Assembly (NCBI RefSeq): GCF_900403705.1
Contig: NZ_OUNR01000012.1
Span: forward strand, 1-64,000
Reading direction: 5' to 3'
DNA length: 64,000 bases
From: Nitrospira lenta
Lineage (GTDB): Bacteria; Nitrospirota; Nitrospiria; Nitrospirales; Nitrospiraceae
Shown here: piece after piece, positions 49,971 to 56,013 of the stretch
Layout: each line of letters begins with the position of its first letter
Numbering within the stretch: the first letter of the stretch is position 1
Program-made: the position numbers and the translations under genes
The notes under the pieces: generated by a model
Databases searched by the model: none
Seen by the model: the letters and a program-made list of their open reading frames with translations, nothing else
What the model was told of the DNA's origin: nothing

Positions 49971-50690
49971 ATGAACGGGAAACGCGTCCTCACAGGATCT
50001 CTCTGTCTTGTCGGTGTCCTCGCCGGCGGCTGTTCAGGCAATCCCGTCTGCTGCGACGGCGGGTATGAATACCGTCACCGCAACGCAGTCCCCGTGGCAG
50101 AACCGATCGTCGACGACCGTGACGAGCGCCTCGCGGCGCTCGAACGGGATCGGCAACGCCAACTCGCTGCCACGGCGCAACTTCAAGATCAAGTTGCCGA
50201 GCTTCAGCGACAATTAACCACACGCCCGCAACCGCCGTTGACTCAAACCTATACCGATCTCCTGACGCTCCTGCGCCCAGAGATCGAACGGGGAACCATC
50301 ACCGTCCAGCAATCCGGGGATCAAATCACGATCCATCTAGCAGACCGCTTACTGTTTGAATCCGGTGAAGATCGCTTGAAACCAGCGGGGACAGAGGTAC
50401 TTCGGAAAGTCGGCGGCATTCTCCGCAACGTCCCGGATCGCCATCTTCGCGTCACCGGACATACAGACAATGTCCCGATCGGCGGGAAACTGATCCAGCG
50501 GTTTCCCTCAAACACCGTGCTCTCGCGCACTCGCGCCGCCCATGCTCGGGAGGCCTTGGAGCAGGGGGGAGCCGTTTCCAATCACATCGCAGCAGAGGGC
50601 TATGGAGAAAGCCATCCCTTGGCTAGCAATGTCACGGAAGATGGCCGGCGAAAGAATCGTCGTGTCGAGATTGTAGTCTTGCCTCAATAG
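49971..50690 (+). CDS. OmpA-family lipoprotein
   Basis: 239-aa lipoprotein with lipobox LAGGC, then PVCCDGGYEYRHRN, a short coiled coil (RDERLAALERDRQRQLAATA) and a C-terminal OmpA domain (LLFESGEDRLKPAG, LRVTGHTDNVPIGG, GRRKNRRVEIVV). It resembles Pal/MotB-type peptidoglycan-associated lipoproteins. It is a short paralogue of the gene upstream, sharing the CCDGGYEYRHR motif right after the export signal. Confidence 0.88.
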   Translation: MNGKRVLTGSLCLVGVLAGGCSGNPVCCDGGYEYRHRNAVPVAEPIVDDRDERLAALERDRQRQLAATAQLQDQVAELQRQLTTRPQPPLTQTYTDLLTLLRPEIERGTITVQQSGDQITIHLADRLLFESGEDRLKPAGTEVLRKVGGILRNVPDRHLRVTGHTDNVPIGGKLIQRFPSNTVLSRTRAAHAREALEQGGAVSNHIAAEGYGESHPLASNVTEDGRRKNRRVEIVVLPQ

Positions 50691-50734: not shown

Positions 50735-51979
50735 CTATGCCAGCTGACAGTGATGCCGGTCTGCCGCCCCCAGATTCGCGAGGCCCGGCACCGTTGCAAG
50801 AATCTTGTAATGGCCCAGTCCCAATTCTTTTCCAAAGGCTTCCCCTACCAGCACATCCTGCACGTGCTGATGATCCGACGCCCGAAAACTCGACCGTCCT
50901 TCCTTCAGCCCATCGAACTCGTGCCCTTCCAATGCCTTGATCAATGCAGCCGTCTCGGTTGACCCGGCGCGCTGAATCGCGTCGAGGATCTGCGTCATCG
51001 CGGCATACCCCAAATAGCACCGGGAGGTGGGCGTATGGTTGTACTTGTCGATCACGCCTTGGATGAATCGCTTTGAACTCTCAGTGTTGATCTTGGGGTC
51101 CCAGATGAGGCCCCAAATCCCCGCATTGTTGGCATAGCCCAACGGGCGCCCAATCTGTTCACCGCTGATCATCCCGCCGACACCGATTTTCTCTTTGGCC
51201 AATTCCAGCTTGCCGTACCCCTTCAAAGCATGCACGAGATCCCATCCATAGAGGTTGAGAATAATCGCCGTCGGTTCCTTGGCCTTCGCCGCGCTGAGGG
51301 CCGATAGAAAGTCCGTGGACCCGAACGGCATCAAGGCTTCGCCGACCAACTCCACCTTGTGCGCCTCTGCCGCCTCCAGCATCGCCTGCGCGGCGGCTTT
51401 GCCGTCGAGCGTACTCGTCGTAATCATATACCAGCGAGTCCCATAGGCCTTCACCAGATGCGGCACCACCGCGTGCGCCAACATGTTGGCGTGGGGCATG
51501 AAGACAAAGGTGTGAGAATTACAGGAGGCGCCGCTTAACTCTGGGAGATGAGACCCGGTCACCACAAACAGTTTGTTTTCTCTCTTTGCCAATTCAGAGA
51601 CGACCAATGCACAGTCCGCGTTGAAGGTGCCCATGAGCACGTCAACATGATCCTCCTTGATAAACTTAGTGGCGACTTTCAGCGCCTGCTCAGGATTCGA
51701 GGCGTCATCGGCTTCGAGAATCGCCACCGGCCGTCCCAGCACACCACCTCGTTTATTAAAAAGATCCACCGCCACATTCGCCCCGTGGACGTCATGGATG
51801 GAGGAGGTCTTATAGGGGCTCGACAAGGGATCGAGTATGCCGATCTTAATCGGCTCTCCCCCTGCGGCGTAAGCTCGGCCGCTCAAGTCCAGCACCCGGT
51901 CGATCAGATCGCCAAACATCAAGGCGCCGCCGGTTGCTACGGACAATTGCAAAAACCGCCTGCGTGACAACTCGTTCAT
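50735..51979 (-). CDS. Orphan Tat-exported substrate-binding protein (branched-chain amino acid/amide type)
   Basis: 414-aa periplasmic binding protein of the LivJ/UrtA/AmiC class. Tat signal SRRRFLQLSVATGG at the start, then KIGILDPLSSPYKTSSIHDV and NVAVDLFNKRGGVLGRPVAI typical of the Peripla_BP fold. No permease or ATPase gene is nearby, so it may be a sensor or work with components encoded elsewhere. GGAGGG immediately upstream supports ATG 51979 over ATG 51991. Last gene of the set behind the sigma54 promoter at 54266. Confidence 0.85.
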   Translation of the reverse strand: MNELSRRRFLQLSVATGGALMFGDLIDRVLDLSGRAYAAGGEPIKIGILDPLSSPYKTSSIHDVHGANVAVDLFNKRGGVLGRPVAILEADDASNPEQALKVATKFIKEDHVDVLMGTFNADCALVVSELAKRENKLFVVTGSHLPELSGASCNSHTFVFMPHANMLAHAVVPHLVKAYGTRWYMITTSTLDGKAAAQAMLEAAEAHKVELVGEALMPFGSTDFLSALSAAKAKEPTAIILNLYGWDLVHALKGYGKLELAKEKIGVGGMISGEQIGRPLGYANNAGIWGLIWDPKINTESSKRFIQGVIDKYNHTPTSRCYLGYAAMTQILDAIQRAGSTETAALIKALEGHEFDGLKEGRSSFRASDHQHVQDVLVGEAFGKELGLGHYKILATVPGLANLGAADRHHCQLA

Positions 51980-52038
51980 CGGTCCCTCCATTTATCGGGC
52001 AACCTGCTCGTACTGTTTGCGGCCTCGGCTAAAGACCA

Positions 52039-52638
52039 TCACGATTTTCCAGTATGAAGTTCGGCCTCCAATTCGGCAATACGCCTCCTCAACGGACCGG
52101 TACGCTCCTCCACCTCATCCGCCGAGTAGCGCGGCGTAATGTACTTTGAGCAGTTCCAGTCGAATGAAACCACATCGATGAAGACCAGACGTTCCACGCT
52201 CGACCGCATCTTGACGGCCACCATCTGCTCGGTCAGCTCCGGATGCGCACGGGCATCCTCGATACGGGCATGGGCGAGAATTTTCAGCCGCTCGCGGTTC
52301 TTGTAGTCCATGAGAAAAAGCGCTACCCGATCGTTCACCGACATATTGCCCGTACTGATCAACTGCCGATTGCCCTTATAATCAGCAAAGACTAATGTCG
52401 AACTGTCCAGCACCCGCAAGAATCCGGAAGGCCCGCCGCGATGCTGGATATAGGGCCACCCGCCTTCACTGATCGATCCCACGTAAAAGCTGTCCCGTGT
52501 GGCAATAAATTCCGCTTCTGCCTGGCCCAGCGGGTCTCGGTCGGGAGCACCCACAATCCTGCCAGCCTGTCCGTAATACTGGGTCTGCGCACGCCTCACG
52601 GCATCCGTGAACATCAGATCGAGGTACTTCGTTGCCAT
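52039..52638 (-). CDS. Pyridoxamine 5'-phosphate oxidase-family flavoprotein
   Basis: 199-aa split-barrel flavin-binding protein: FIATRDSFYVGSISEGGWPY, GGPSGFLRVLDSSTLVFADY and NRQLISTGNMSVNDRVALFL match the PPOX-class general fold. Such proteins use FMN, F420 or haem; the substrate is unknown. It is not PdxH. GGGGAGG precedes the ATG. It lies between the broken DsrE gene and the substrate-binding protein gene. Confidence 0.82.
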   Translation of the reverse strand: MATKYLDLMFTDAVRRAQTQYYGQAGRIVGAPDRDPLGQAEAEFIATRDSFYVGSISEGGWPYIQHRGGPSGFLRVLDSSTLVFADYKGNRQLISTGNMSVNDRVALFLMDYKNRERLKILAHARIEDARAHPELTEQMVAVKMRSSVERLVFIDVVSFDWNCSKYITPRYSADEVEERTGPLRRRIAELEAELHTGKS

Positions 52639-52711
52639 CGCGCCTCCCCAATTCGTCTTCCGTTCCAGCCTGTCCAGGAGGCGGCCTTACGGTCGTCTCC
52701 TGGGACTCGAC

Positions 52712-53086
52712 TCAAAACACGATTGTCTGCCAGCCTTCCGCCATGTAGCGCCGCAAACTTAAGAGCCCCGCTGTCCCCGCCAATGCATGGTCTTTCACAA
52801 TCGGGACTCCGCAAGCCTTAACACTTTCCGTCGCCCCAAAGACCTCCGCGCAACCGCATGAGGCGCCTTGCACGACATCGCGAACAGCGTTGTAGAGACC
52901 ATTGGCTGGGTGCGAGAGCTTGGTCAATTCAGCCGGCCAGCGCGTACCGGCGCCATTGAACACGACGGCTACTTCGTCGCCTTTCTATTTACATTCGGAT
53001 GCCAGGGCAAGGGCATTAAAGACTCGTCCCAGCGACTCTTCGGAACCAGTCTTCGGGTCGGACAGAATGATGATGGCCGTTTTCAT
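52712..53086 (-). pseudogene. DsrE-like gene interrupted by an in-frame amber codon
   Basis: From ATG 53086 (AAGGAGA upstream) the frame reads MKTAIIILSDPKTGSEESLG then ALALASECK, a TAG at 52985-52987 (codon 34), and continues without frame change as KGDEVAVVFNGAGTRWPAEL to a normal TGA at 52712. The whole is a 124-codon DsrE/DsrF-type fold, including Cys-bearing GASCGCAEVF and the end segment AGLLSLRRYM. The tail alone would be an unnatural 83-aa gene. Nonsense mutation, readthrough or sequencing error are all possible. Confidence 0.82.
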
Positions 53087-53121
53087 GATTTCTCCTTATT
53101 CAGATGAGGGAGCCGTTTGTG

Positions 53122-54138
53122 CTAGTGCTTCTTTCCATTCGCCACTTTTTCTGCGTAGAAACGGTGCATCTGGTTCGAGATGTAGTCCAGATGGTCTTCT
53201 ACAGCGAAATGCCCGGCGTCAAGACGATGCATTTCGGCACTCGGAAGGTCCTTCAAGTAGGCTTCCCCTCCTTGTGGCGTAAAGAAAATATCAGTCTGAC
53301 CCCAGAAAATGATCGTCTTGGGTTGATGCTGACGTAGGAACTCCTGCCACACTGGATACAGCTCCACATTCTTGCGATAGTCGTAAAAGAGGTTCAGATT
53401 GACGCGGACCGCGTTCGGTCTTTGCATAAACGCGAAATCTGACTCCCAGTTATCAGGACTGATTAGCTCAGTATTTTTTGCTCCGAACAGATAGATGCCC
53501 TTGATCGCATCATAAGTAAGAAATCCCTCCAAAGGTTTTTCGGACTCGGCCGACCTGTTTTTCCAGAGTGCGCCACGGAAGCCGTCCCACGAAGCAGTGA
53601 AGCCGACTTCGTAGGCGTTCGTATTCTGGACGATCAGCCAATCAAGCACTTTGGGATTGCGCCCAGCAATCCTGAAACCGATCGGTCCACCGTAATCTTG
53701 AGCATAGAGGCCGTAGTGGTCAAAGCCTTTGAGCTTCAGAAAATGCTCGACGATCTCGGCAATGCCGTCGAAGGTGTAATCGTACGTGGCTGGATCCGGC
53801 ATATCGCTGAGCCCAAAGCCGGGATAGTCTGGGGCAATGACATGAAAGGTATCTGAAAGGGATCGTATGAGGTCTCGATATTGATGCGACGCGGCCGGGA
53901 AACCATGCAGCAACACAATTTTGGGATTGCTGGGATCCCCTGCCTCACGATACGCGATGTTCAATCCATCCACCTTGATACTGCTGTACTTCACGGCCGT
54001 GGCCTCGCGAGTGACAACCTTTCGATTATTCTTGGCGGTTTGGCCATAGGCATCGAGGCTTGATCCTAAGAGGGCAATCGCCAACACTCCCAGCCCTACA
54101 CTCGACCACCATGCTCTTCCTATCGTCTTATGTTCCAT
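53122..54138 (-). CDS. Exported alpha/beta hydrolase, haloalkane dehalogenase/epoxide hydrolase-like
   Basis: 338-aa hydrolase with a signal peptide (VGLGVLAIALLGSSLDAYG). Oxyanion region VLLHGFPAASHQYRDLI, nucleophile elbow LYAQDYGGPIGF with Asp instead of Ser, and the catalytic His in LDAGHFAVEDH. An Asp nucleophile is typical of dehalogenases and epoxide hydrolases and not of esterases. The substrate cannot be told. First gene behind the sigma54 promoter at 54266. Confidence 0.83.
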   Translation of the reverse strand: MEHKTIGRAWWSSVGLGVLAIALLGSSLDAYGQTAKNNRKVVTREATAVKYSSIKVDGLNIAYREAGDPSNPKIVLLHGFPAASHQYRDLIRSLSDTFHVIAPDYPGFGLSDMPDPATYDYTFDGIAEIVEHFLKLKGFDHYGLYAQDYGGPIGFRIAGRNPKVLDWLIVQNTNAYEVGFTASWDGFRGALWKNRSAESEKPLEGFLTYDAIKGIYLFGAKNTELISPDNWESDFAFMQRPNAVRVNLNLFYDYRKNVELYPVWQEFLRQHQPKTIIFWGQTDIFFTPQGGEAYLKDLPSAEMHRLDAGHFAVEDHLDYISNQMHRFYAEKVANGKKH

Positions 54139-54265
54139 CGTCGTCTCCTGTGTTTACTCACGTCCATACTGTGGATCGTCTCAGTTGCTTGTCGGCGTTG
54201 TCCTGATCGGATGCGGAGTCACTTTCGAACGTTCTCTGCGATGGCCATCGCACCTCGCCACTACC

Positions 54266-54280
54266 GCAAGGCCGGTGCCA
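54266..54280 (-). promoter_or_regulatory. Sigma54 (-24/-12) promoter of the hydrolase operon
   Basis: On the minus strand this reads TGGCACCGGCCTTGC, an exact match to the sigma54 consensus TGGCAC-N5-TTGC. Transcription would start near 54254, about 115 bases before the hydrolase ATG. A sigma54 activator gene ends about 155 bases upstream. Confidence 0.85.
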
Positions 54281-54379
54281 CCTGTCTCGACGATGAGTGA
54301 AACAAGATAAAGCACTGCTGAGACAAGGGTTTGCCTGGTTACTCGCAGTTGCATGAAGCAGGAGGAAGCCGAGGAGCCT

Positions 54380-54395
54380 CCACGAGATGTCGTGG
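54380..54395. promoter_or_regulatory. Putative activator-binding palindrome 1
   Basis: CCACGA-GATG-TCGTGG is an inverted repeat with six-base arms and a four-base centre. It lies about 130 bases upstream of the predicted start of transcription, in the usual range for sigma54 enhancer sites. Its twin is centred 18 bases away. Confidence 0.65.
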
Positions 54396-54397
54396 AA

Positions 54398-54413
54398 CTA
54401 CGATATCTCGTAG
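54398..54413. promoter_or_regulatory. Putative activator-binding palindrome 2
   Basis: CTACGA-TATC-TCGTAG has the same architecture as palindrome 1 (C-Y-ACGA-N4-TCGT-R-G), centred 18 bases from it, just downstream of the activator gene's stop. The pair suggests two dimers bound side by side on nearly the same face of the helix. Confidence 0.65.
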
Positions 54414-54435: not shown

Positions 54436-56013
54436 CTATGCGGTGGAGAGAGGTTTCTTGATGCCGAGCTTCTGCATACGGGATCGGAGAGTGTTGGGAT
54501 GGAGACCAAGCCGAGTCGCGGCGCCCTGTTTTCCTTCAATGACCCAGTTCACATCCTGAAGGATGCGGAGGATGTGGGCTCGTTCCACCTCTTCCAGGGA
54601 ATCGGCAACCGGCAACAGCGGGGCGGAGTTTCCCGGGAGCATCACCTCGTCGATCTGAAGCATCGGCCCGTTTGCGAGAATCGTGGCCCGTTCGATTACA
54701 TTTTCCAGCTCTCGAATGTTGCCGGGCCATGAATACGCCATCAGACGATCCATCGTCGCGTGTGACACACCATCAAATCGTTTGCCAAGCTTGGTTGAAC
54801 ACTTTGTGATGAAGCGGTTGACCAAGGACGGAATATCGGCAGCACGGGCAGATAGAGGAGGCACCTCGATCGGAAACACATTCAGCCGGTAGAAGAGATC
54901 GGCCCGGAAAGAACCGGCCTTCACCGCCGCATGGAGGTCACGATTCGTAGCCACGATTACTCGCACATCGACCTTCGTCGAATGACCGCTGCCGACCCGT
55001 TCGAATTCTCGCTCCTGCAACACCCGCAGAAGTTTCACCTGCGCATCCAGCGGAAGTTCTCCCACTTCATCCAGAAAGATCGTCCCTCCGTCCGCCAACT
55101 CAAACCTGCCAATGCGACGCTGTAAGGCTCCCGTAAATGATCCCTTCTCATGACCGAAGAGTTCGCTTTCGATAAGATTGGCGGGGATCGCGCCGCAGTT
55201 CACCTTCACCAAAGTGCGAACCCGGCGAGGGCTCATGTGGTGGATTGCCCGGGCGATCAGTTCCTTGCCCGTCCCGGTATCTCCGTGGATGAGGACCGTT
55301 GAGTCGGTCGGTGCGACCTGTTCGATCGACCGCAGCACGGCCTTGACGCTCTGGCTCTCGCCAATGATCTCGTCAAAGTTATGCTCGAGTTTGATCTCTT
55401 CACGAAGGTAGAGATTCTCGGCTTGCAGCCGATCCTTCAGCTGTTGAACTTCCGTAAACAGCTGCGCATTCTTGATCGCAATCGCGGCCTCATTGGCAAA
55501 GACAGCCAATCGCTCGAACTCCTCTCCGCTGAGCGGCCGGCGTCCGAACATCGCGATGACGCCAAGCAATTCCCAGCGGAACTTCAATGGATACCCGGCA
55601 AAGGAGCGGAGACCATTGTCGAGCATCCATTGTTTATTCGGAAGTCGATCGTCGCCGAGTACGTCGTTCGTAAAAATGGCGCTGGATCCTTGCGCGATCT
55701 TTCCGATCTTCAATGCGCCAAGCGGGATACGGCGATATTCCCCTTTGAGATTGGTATAGAGCCCGGCGCTCGCTTCAAGATGCAGGCAGCGGCTCCGGTT
55801 CGCACAGTCGGCCGCTTTATAACAGTCGGCACAAAGATCGCCGAGACCCAGGAGCCAGATACGAGCGAAGGCCGCATCCAACTCCTCCACCAAACCCTGG
55901 GTGATGGTATCCAACACGACCTGAAGATCGAGACTCGAGGCCATTTGAAGGGTTATACGTTCGAGTATTGCGCGGGGACTCGTAGATCGGTCAGGGGCAG
56001 GACCGGTTGGCAT
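54436..56013 (-). CDS. Sigma54-dependent activator with GAF domain (FhlA/NorR-like layout)
   Basis: 525-aa enhancer-binding protein. GAF domain ~25-185 containing four cysteines (61, 64, 70, 76; pattern CxxCx5Cx5C). The AAA+ domain from ~213 has Walker A GDTGTGKE (244-251), sigma54-contact loop GSFTGA (291-296) and Walker [10 protein letters not shown] Fis-type HTH ends it ([20 protein letters not shown]). The Cys cluster could bind a metal or iron-sulfur cofactor, so it may sense redox state or a gas; this is inference. A consensus -24/-12 promoter and two palindromes directly downstream mark the hydrolase operon as its likely target. Confidence 0.9.

Follow-up and report, generated by a model that had tools for sequence, protein, structure and literature searches.

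The DsrE/DsrF-like family (PF02635) includes DsrEFH (PDB code 2hy5), SSO1126 (2qs7) and BT1422 (2fb6), and a small gene of Nitrospira lenta resembles these proteins in matching the family profile along its full length and in its predicted alpha/beta fold. The Nitrospira gene differs from them in scoring just under the Pfam cut-off and in adjoining a gene for a PNPOx-type flavoprotein, rather than being part of a dsrEFH or tusBCD set. An amber codon interrupts the N. lenta copy. With conserved coding sequence flanking an in-frame UAG, it resembles cases of amber readthrough and of pyrrolysine or suppressor-tRNA recoding; in contrast to those systems, no tRNA with a CUA anticodon is present among 44 tRNA genes of N. 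lenta, the stop is not conserved, and RF1 is present. The early nonsense-type pseudogenes of bacteria combine a single nonsense substitution, an unchanged remainder of the gene, intact sister orthologues and independent losses. Nothing distinguishes the N. lenta gene from these pseudogenes, and only the pattern of loss within the DsrE-PNPOx pair is specific to it. Among the titles and abstracts listed for DsrE in Nitrospira, nothing concerns this operon.

In strain BS10, whose genome stands for N. lenta, the gene most probably (about 80%) acquired its stop only recently, by a nonsense mutation that turned CAG into TAG at Gln34, and would be a null DsrE allele within a sigma54-regulated operon. 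The case looks like ordinary early gene loss rather than special decoding. Its value is chiefly corrective and cautionary: the amber codon most likely represents a fresh loss-of-function mutation, and BS10 should be counted neither among the DsrE-positive species nor among the cases of recoding. The published BS10 draft genome comprises 3,756,190 bases in 22 contigs and was reported to contain zero pseudogenes; the interrupted DsrE gene was therefore not recognised as a pseudogene in that report (PMC6251164).

Structure and identity of the interrupted gene

The window analysed is a stretch of 64,000 nucleotides from the N. lenta contig NZ_OUNR01000012.1, and its relevant features are collected in Table 1. 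Read on the minus strand from 53086 to 52712, the DsrE-like gene consists of a ribosome site, an ATG, 33 codons, TAG, 90 codons and TGA; all of the elements on which the initial annotation had based a single gene divided by one amber codon were thus retrieved. The 5' end of the gene with its ribosome site, AAGGAGAAATC-ATG, is located at 53084–53097, and the translation is MKTAIIILSDPKTGSEESLGRVFNALALASECK*KGDEVAVVFNG...WQTIVF*, where asterisks mark stops. The read-through frame contains 124 residues; along its whole length it shares 92–97% identity with orthologues of the closest Nitrospira genomes, which lack the interruption. This identity to whole orthologues, together with the low dN after the stop (see below), indicates that the split gene is not a chance arrangement.

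The DsrE character proposed from the sequence holds, although weakly by Pfam, as the read-through product scores 22.0 bits against a cut-off of 22.7 for the DsrE profile (residues 1–124, profile positions 1–116). All 22 aligned homologues match the same profile with E ≤ 0.01. A search by sequence profile for relatives of the product with solved structures gave none that were meaningful. The AlphaFold2 model of the read-through product (pLDDT 84, pTM 0.82) displays a predicted DsrE-type alpha/beta fold, and its best Foldseek matches (2fb6, 2qs7, 2hy5, 3pnx and 3mc3) are DsrE-like or have that fold, with probabilities of 0.9–1.0. Membership in the DsrE/DsrF-like family is acceptable by predicted fold and weak by profile score. 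Cys79 and Cys92 are invariant in the homologue alignment, and the cysteines of the Nitrospira family are Cys77, Cys79 and Cys92. No second DsrE copy able to compensate was found, the N. lenta genome giving a single match.

In the model, the stop coincides with the end of helix 1 (residues 16–34). Only 33 residues would be translated, up to the end of this first helix, and the resulting strand-helix fragment should not fold; no folded DsrE would be produced, except possibly in trace amounts by readthrough.

Table 1. Coordinates of the features of the DsrE-PNPOx operon and its surroundings (positions in the window, except for the regulator loci of relatives in the last row).
Feature	Position	Strand	Evidence
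s54R, regulator with GAF, AAA+ sigma54 activator and Fis-type HTH domains	54436..56013	-	Pfam Sigma54_activat 3.7e-73, GAF 9.4e-12, HTH_8 9.4e-7
Tandem dyads CTACGA-GATA-TCGTAG / CCACGA-CATC-TCGTGG	54380..54413	-	Alignment of 9 intergenic regions
Predicted sigma54 -24/-12 promoter GTGGCAC-CGGCC-TTGC, GTGGCACCGGCCTTGC	54266..54281	-	Aligned with the promoters of relatives
Alpha/beta hydrolase gene	53122..54138	-	Pfam Abhydrolase_1 5.8e-28
DsrE ribosome-binding site AAGGAGA	53091..53097	-	Sequence
DsrE-like gene with amber codon	52712..53086	-	Translation, Pfam, orthologue comparison, predicted fold
In-frame TAG at codon 34 (CAG/CAA, Gln, in relatives)	52985..52987	-	Orthologue comparison
PNPOx-type flavoprotein gene, constant partner of DsrE	52039..52638	-	Pfam PNPOx_N 4e-9; pairing in relatives
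Periplasmic substrate-binding protein gene, TAT-like signal	50735..51991	-	Pfam Peripla_BP_6 8.9e-69, TAT_signal 0.0069
ABATE/CGNR regulator loci of relatives	L083 7301–7972; L085 6259–6864; also L090, L093, L108, L113, L115–L118, L028		Pfam ABATE

Predicted regulation and gene content of the operon

The activator gene s54R is located directly upstream of the operon, a position that it also occupies in most close relatives. The two conserved dyads (TACGA-N4-TCGTA type) are probably the binding sites of the activator, and the predicted promoter matches TGGCAC-N5-TTGC exactly, as does no other site in the window. The promoter, the dyads and the activator gene support a sigma54-controlled operon at the sequence level, in agreement with the initial annotation, which had placed the DsrE gene inside one. 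A sigma70 scan around the DsrE gene found no promoter. A perfect palindrome, GCGATGGCCATCGC, is situated just downstream of the sigma54 promoter at 54238–54251 and is kept in genomes G050 and G070; it could possibly be an operator at the transcript start.

Among the neighbourhoods examined, that of N. lenta is the only one in which the alpha/beta hydrolase gene separates the sigma54 promoter from DsrE. Its closest homologues in the genus, 66% identical, are those of G064 and G065, where they are far from the DsrE genes. In G016 and G033, more distant relatives of the hydrolase (40–42%) are found on the downstream side of PNPOx, and G008 and G076 have such relatives close to the operon; this suggests a recurrent association of such hydrolases with the DsrE-PNPOx operon.

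The genes downstream of DsrE, encoding the PNPOx-type flavoprotein and the substrate-binding protein, are intact and probably still expressed, perhaps at a level lowered by polarity. We infer the loss of DsrE function, the transcription of the operon and any polarity from the sequence. The PNPOx gene has its own ribosome site (GGGGAGG, 52636–52649) and should therefore be translatable independently. The gap between DsrE and PNPOx (52639–52711) can form a hairpin, which is weakened in the versions of N. lenta and G022 (z of -0.9 and 0.4); in most relatives the gap contains a strong stem-loop of differing sequence, with z down to -7. The operon of N. lenta and its nearest relatives ends with the substrate-binding protein gene. 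In the window, this gene is adjoined by a convergent OmpA-like gene (49971–50690) and, consequently, no transporter genes are found directly beside it.

Origin, age and possible decoding of the amber codon

Orthologues were searched in 79 genomes of the genus Nitrospira, of which 46 hold a DsrE match, and 29 orthologues were fetched. Codon 34 encodes glutamine in all 29, almost always as CAG with a few instances of CAA, and is a stop in none. By this comparison, the ancestral residue is glutamine, and tyrosine, which had been considered a plausible ancestor, was rejected. The amber codon is private to N. lenta, and CAG and TAG are separated by one C-to-T transition on the coding strand, a single event that would have created the stop. 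Beyond N. lenta, no stop was present in the DsrE matches listed for 245 genomes of the phylum. A two-part gene structure common to relatives, which had been put forward as one observation that would speak against a disrupted gene, was likewise rejected, since no other orthologue contains a stop at this position.

The age of the stop was estimated from private codon states and three-point distances, with the synonymous rate providing the expectation. Compared with 14 close relatives, the private non-synonymous states of N. lenta are S13T, A18S and the stop itself, with none after the stop. Between the part after the stop and its counterparts in the nearest three genomes (G022, G067 and G050), dN is 0.015–0.025 and dS is 0.38–0.52, corresponding to a dN/dS of about 0.04–0.05. 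These values and the high full-length identity bear out the earlier impression that both halves of the gene are under coding constraint. On the N. lenta branch, the three-point estimate gives about one non-synonymous change after the stop, compared to about 47 expected if the sequence were neutral; thus, the share of the branch that was free of constraint is about 10% at most. Either the stop arose within the last 10% or so of the branch, or constraint persists. The substitution count dates the loss of constraint and not necessarily the stop itself, since readthrough of the stop would produce an identical trace.

The tRNA genes were detected with the Rfam tRNA model and typed with ARAGORN, which covered 44 genes, two fewer than the 46 given in the BS10 paper (PMC6251164). 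None of the 44 carries a CUA anticodon, so that no suppressor tRNA was found among them, and both genes for tRNA-Gln are of the ordinary kind (CTG and TTG). A match above the curated cut-off shows that RF1 is present. TAG terminates 14 of the 38 long open reading frames in the window, and both trigger factor and the sigma54 regulator end with TAG at the position where their relatives also end. With no CUA tRNA in this set, RF1 encoded in the genome and UAG in frequent use as an ordinary stop, programmed readthrough is unsupported, and the sequence gives no sign of a dedicated UAG-decoding mechanism.

The unchanged remainder after the stop is equally expected of a functional read-through gene, in which a near-cognate tRNA-Gln would probably decode UAG at codon 34 and yield sufficient full-length protein that selection maintains the rest of the frame. 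Such decoding would be favoured by the base after the UAG, which is A and not U, and in suppressor-free E. coli glutamine is reportedly inserted at UAG through basal misreading by tRNA-Gln. However, the tRNA complement, RF1 and the frequent use of UAG as an ordinary stop argue against it, and the stop occurs in no relative, so that there is no programmed signal under selection; functional readthrough is accordingly considered improbable. It is more doubtful still that near-cognate tRNA-Gln restores the ancestral glutamine to give a low level of working DsrE, with the amber codon acting as a natural down-tuner in the sigma54 operon. A consensus error, in which the genome would in fact have a sense codon and TAG would stem from faulty sequencing or assembly, would be consistent with a single-base event in an otherwise pristine gene and with a draft genome obtained by Roche 454 GS FLX sequencing at 40-fold coverage (PMC6251164). 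However, errors of the 454 platform are mostly indels in homopolymers, and its substitution errors are cited at about one in 1e5–1e6 bases and attributed to PCR (PMC3623719); a 40-fold consensus suppresses substitutions, and the change keeps the frame exactly. A mistake of this kind has, in our estimation, a low probability.

The remaining part of the gene might instead be translated as an independent C-terminal protein of 83 residues from a separate GTG start at 52963 (codon 42), from which an open frame does exist. No ribosome site is present at a usable distance, with the nearest purine run about 16 bases upstream of the GTG; strand 1, helix 1 and the greater part of strand 2 of the predicted fold would be missing from the product; and the split is found in no relative. 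Together these points make a two-part gene scarcely credible. Among the possibilities that the initial annotation had listed for the stop, namely that it is recent, an error or read through, a recent origin is the best supported; an error is unlikely given the 454 platform, and readthrough would have to proceed without dedicated machinery, possibly at a basal level. As a special case of the null allele, the mutation could have arisen during the isolation of BS10 and be absent from natural N. lenta. The youth of the stop by substitution count and the intact partner genes are compatible with an origin in culture, but other natural genomes also lose DsrE, and we consider it a minority possibility within the recent nonsense mutation favoured here.

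Losses and regulator exchange across the genus

The gene order in relatives is sigma54 activator, DsrE and PNPOx, to which the nearest species add the substrate-binding protein. PNPOx is found in 45 of the 79 genus genomes, which coincide with the bearers of DsrE or its remnants except for G030 and G057. G030 contains PNPOx without DsrE, no DsrE being present between the upstream regulator and PNPOx, while in G057 DsrE is located at a contig end and no PNPOx match was obtained. Apart from this contig end, no intact DsrE without PNPOx was seen among the genus genomes.

At least four other Nitrospira genomes (G038, G052, G030 and G039) have an intact PNPOx with DsrE deleted or degenerate. The DsrE gene of G038 shows a deletion of codons 22–42, an in-frame stop and decay; that of G052 has lost its first half (codons 1 to about 68); and that of G039 is a degenerate remnant with a stop. 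In all three, PNPOx is whole. A deletion in G026 damages both DsrE and PNPOx. Several of these broken relatives are draft genomes, in which the truncations could be assembly artefacts. N. lenta fits a series of independent DsrE losses at its earliest stage, and its DsrE gene would represent the first step of a loss reached elsewhere in Nitrospira by deletion and decay. The repeated loss of DsrE with retention of the flavoprotein suggests that the flavoprotein of this conserved pair can act without DsrE.

Two further irregularities were observed in the operons of relatives. The PNPOx reading frame of G071 (L016), a draft genome, is interrupted by a TAG close to the C-terminus (RPLK*RIAALEAE), which would be a second nonsense codon of independent origin in this operon. 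In G024 (L107 3767–4308), the 3' end of DsrE (codons 89–124) occurs twice in different frames, as a result of either tandem duplication or an assembly fault.

The regulators associated with the pair also vary. In G022, G067 and others, a divergent ABATE/CGNR-type regulator (Pfam ABATE 9.8e-10) replaces the sigma54 activator, and in G022 and G067 a sigma70-like TTGACA-N17-TATAAC is present upstream of DsrE. Judged by these neighbourhoods, the same DsrE-PNPOx pair is placed under a swapped regulator in different species. This variable regulation of a small DsrE-PNPOx operon is more informative than the stop codon itself. In a third arrangement, a divergent sigma54 activator (45–48% identical) precedes DsrE, PNPOx and the substrate-binding protein gene (L091 3886–5463, L092 8730–10295 and L094 3693–5275). 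G068 and G064, which have this arrangement, contain a second DsrE paralogue (42–43%) beyond the divergent activator. The divergent sigma54 activator of G002 appears in two pieces in different frames, and the sigma54 activator of G050 (L081 5540–6837) matches only residues 1–343 and 468–521 and lacks the part between them, with DsrE, PNPOx and the substrate-binding protein gene intact.
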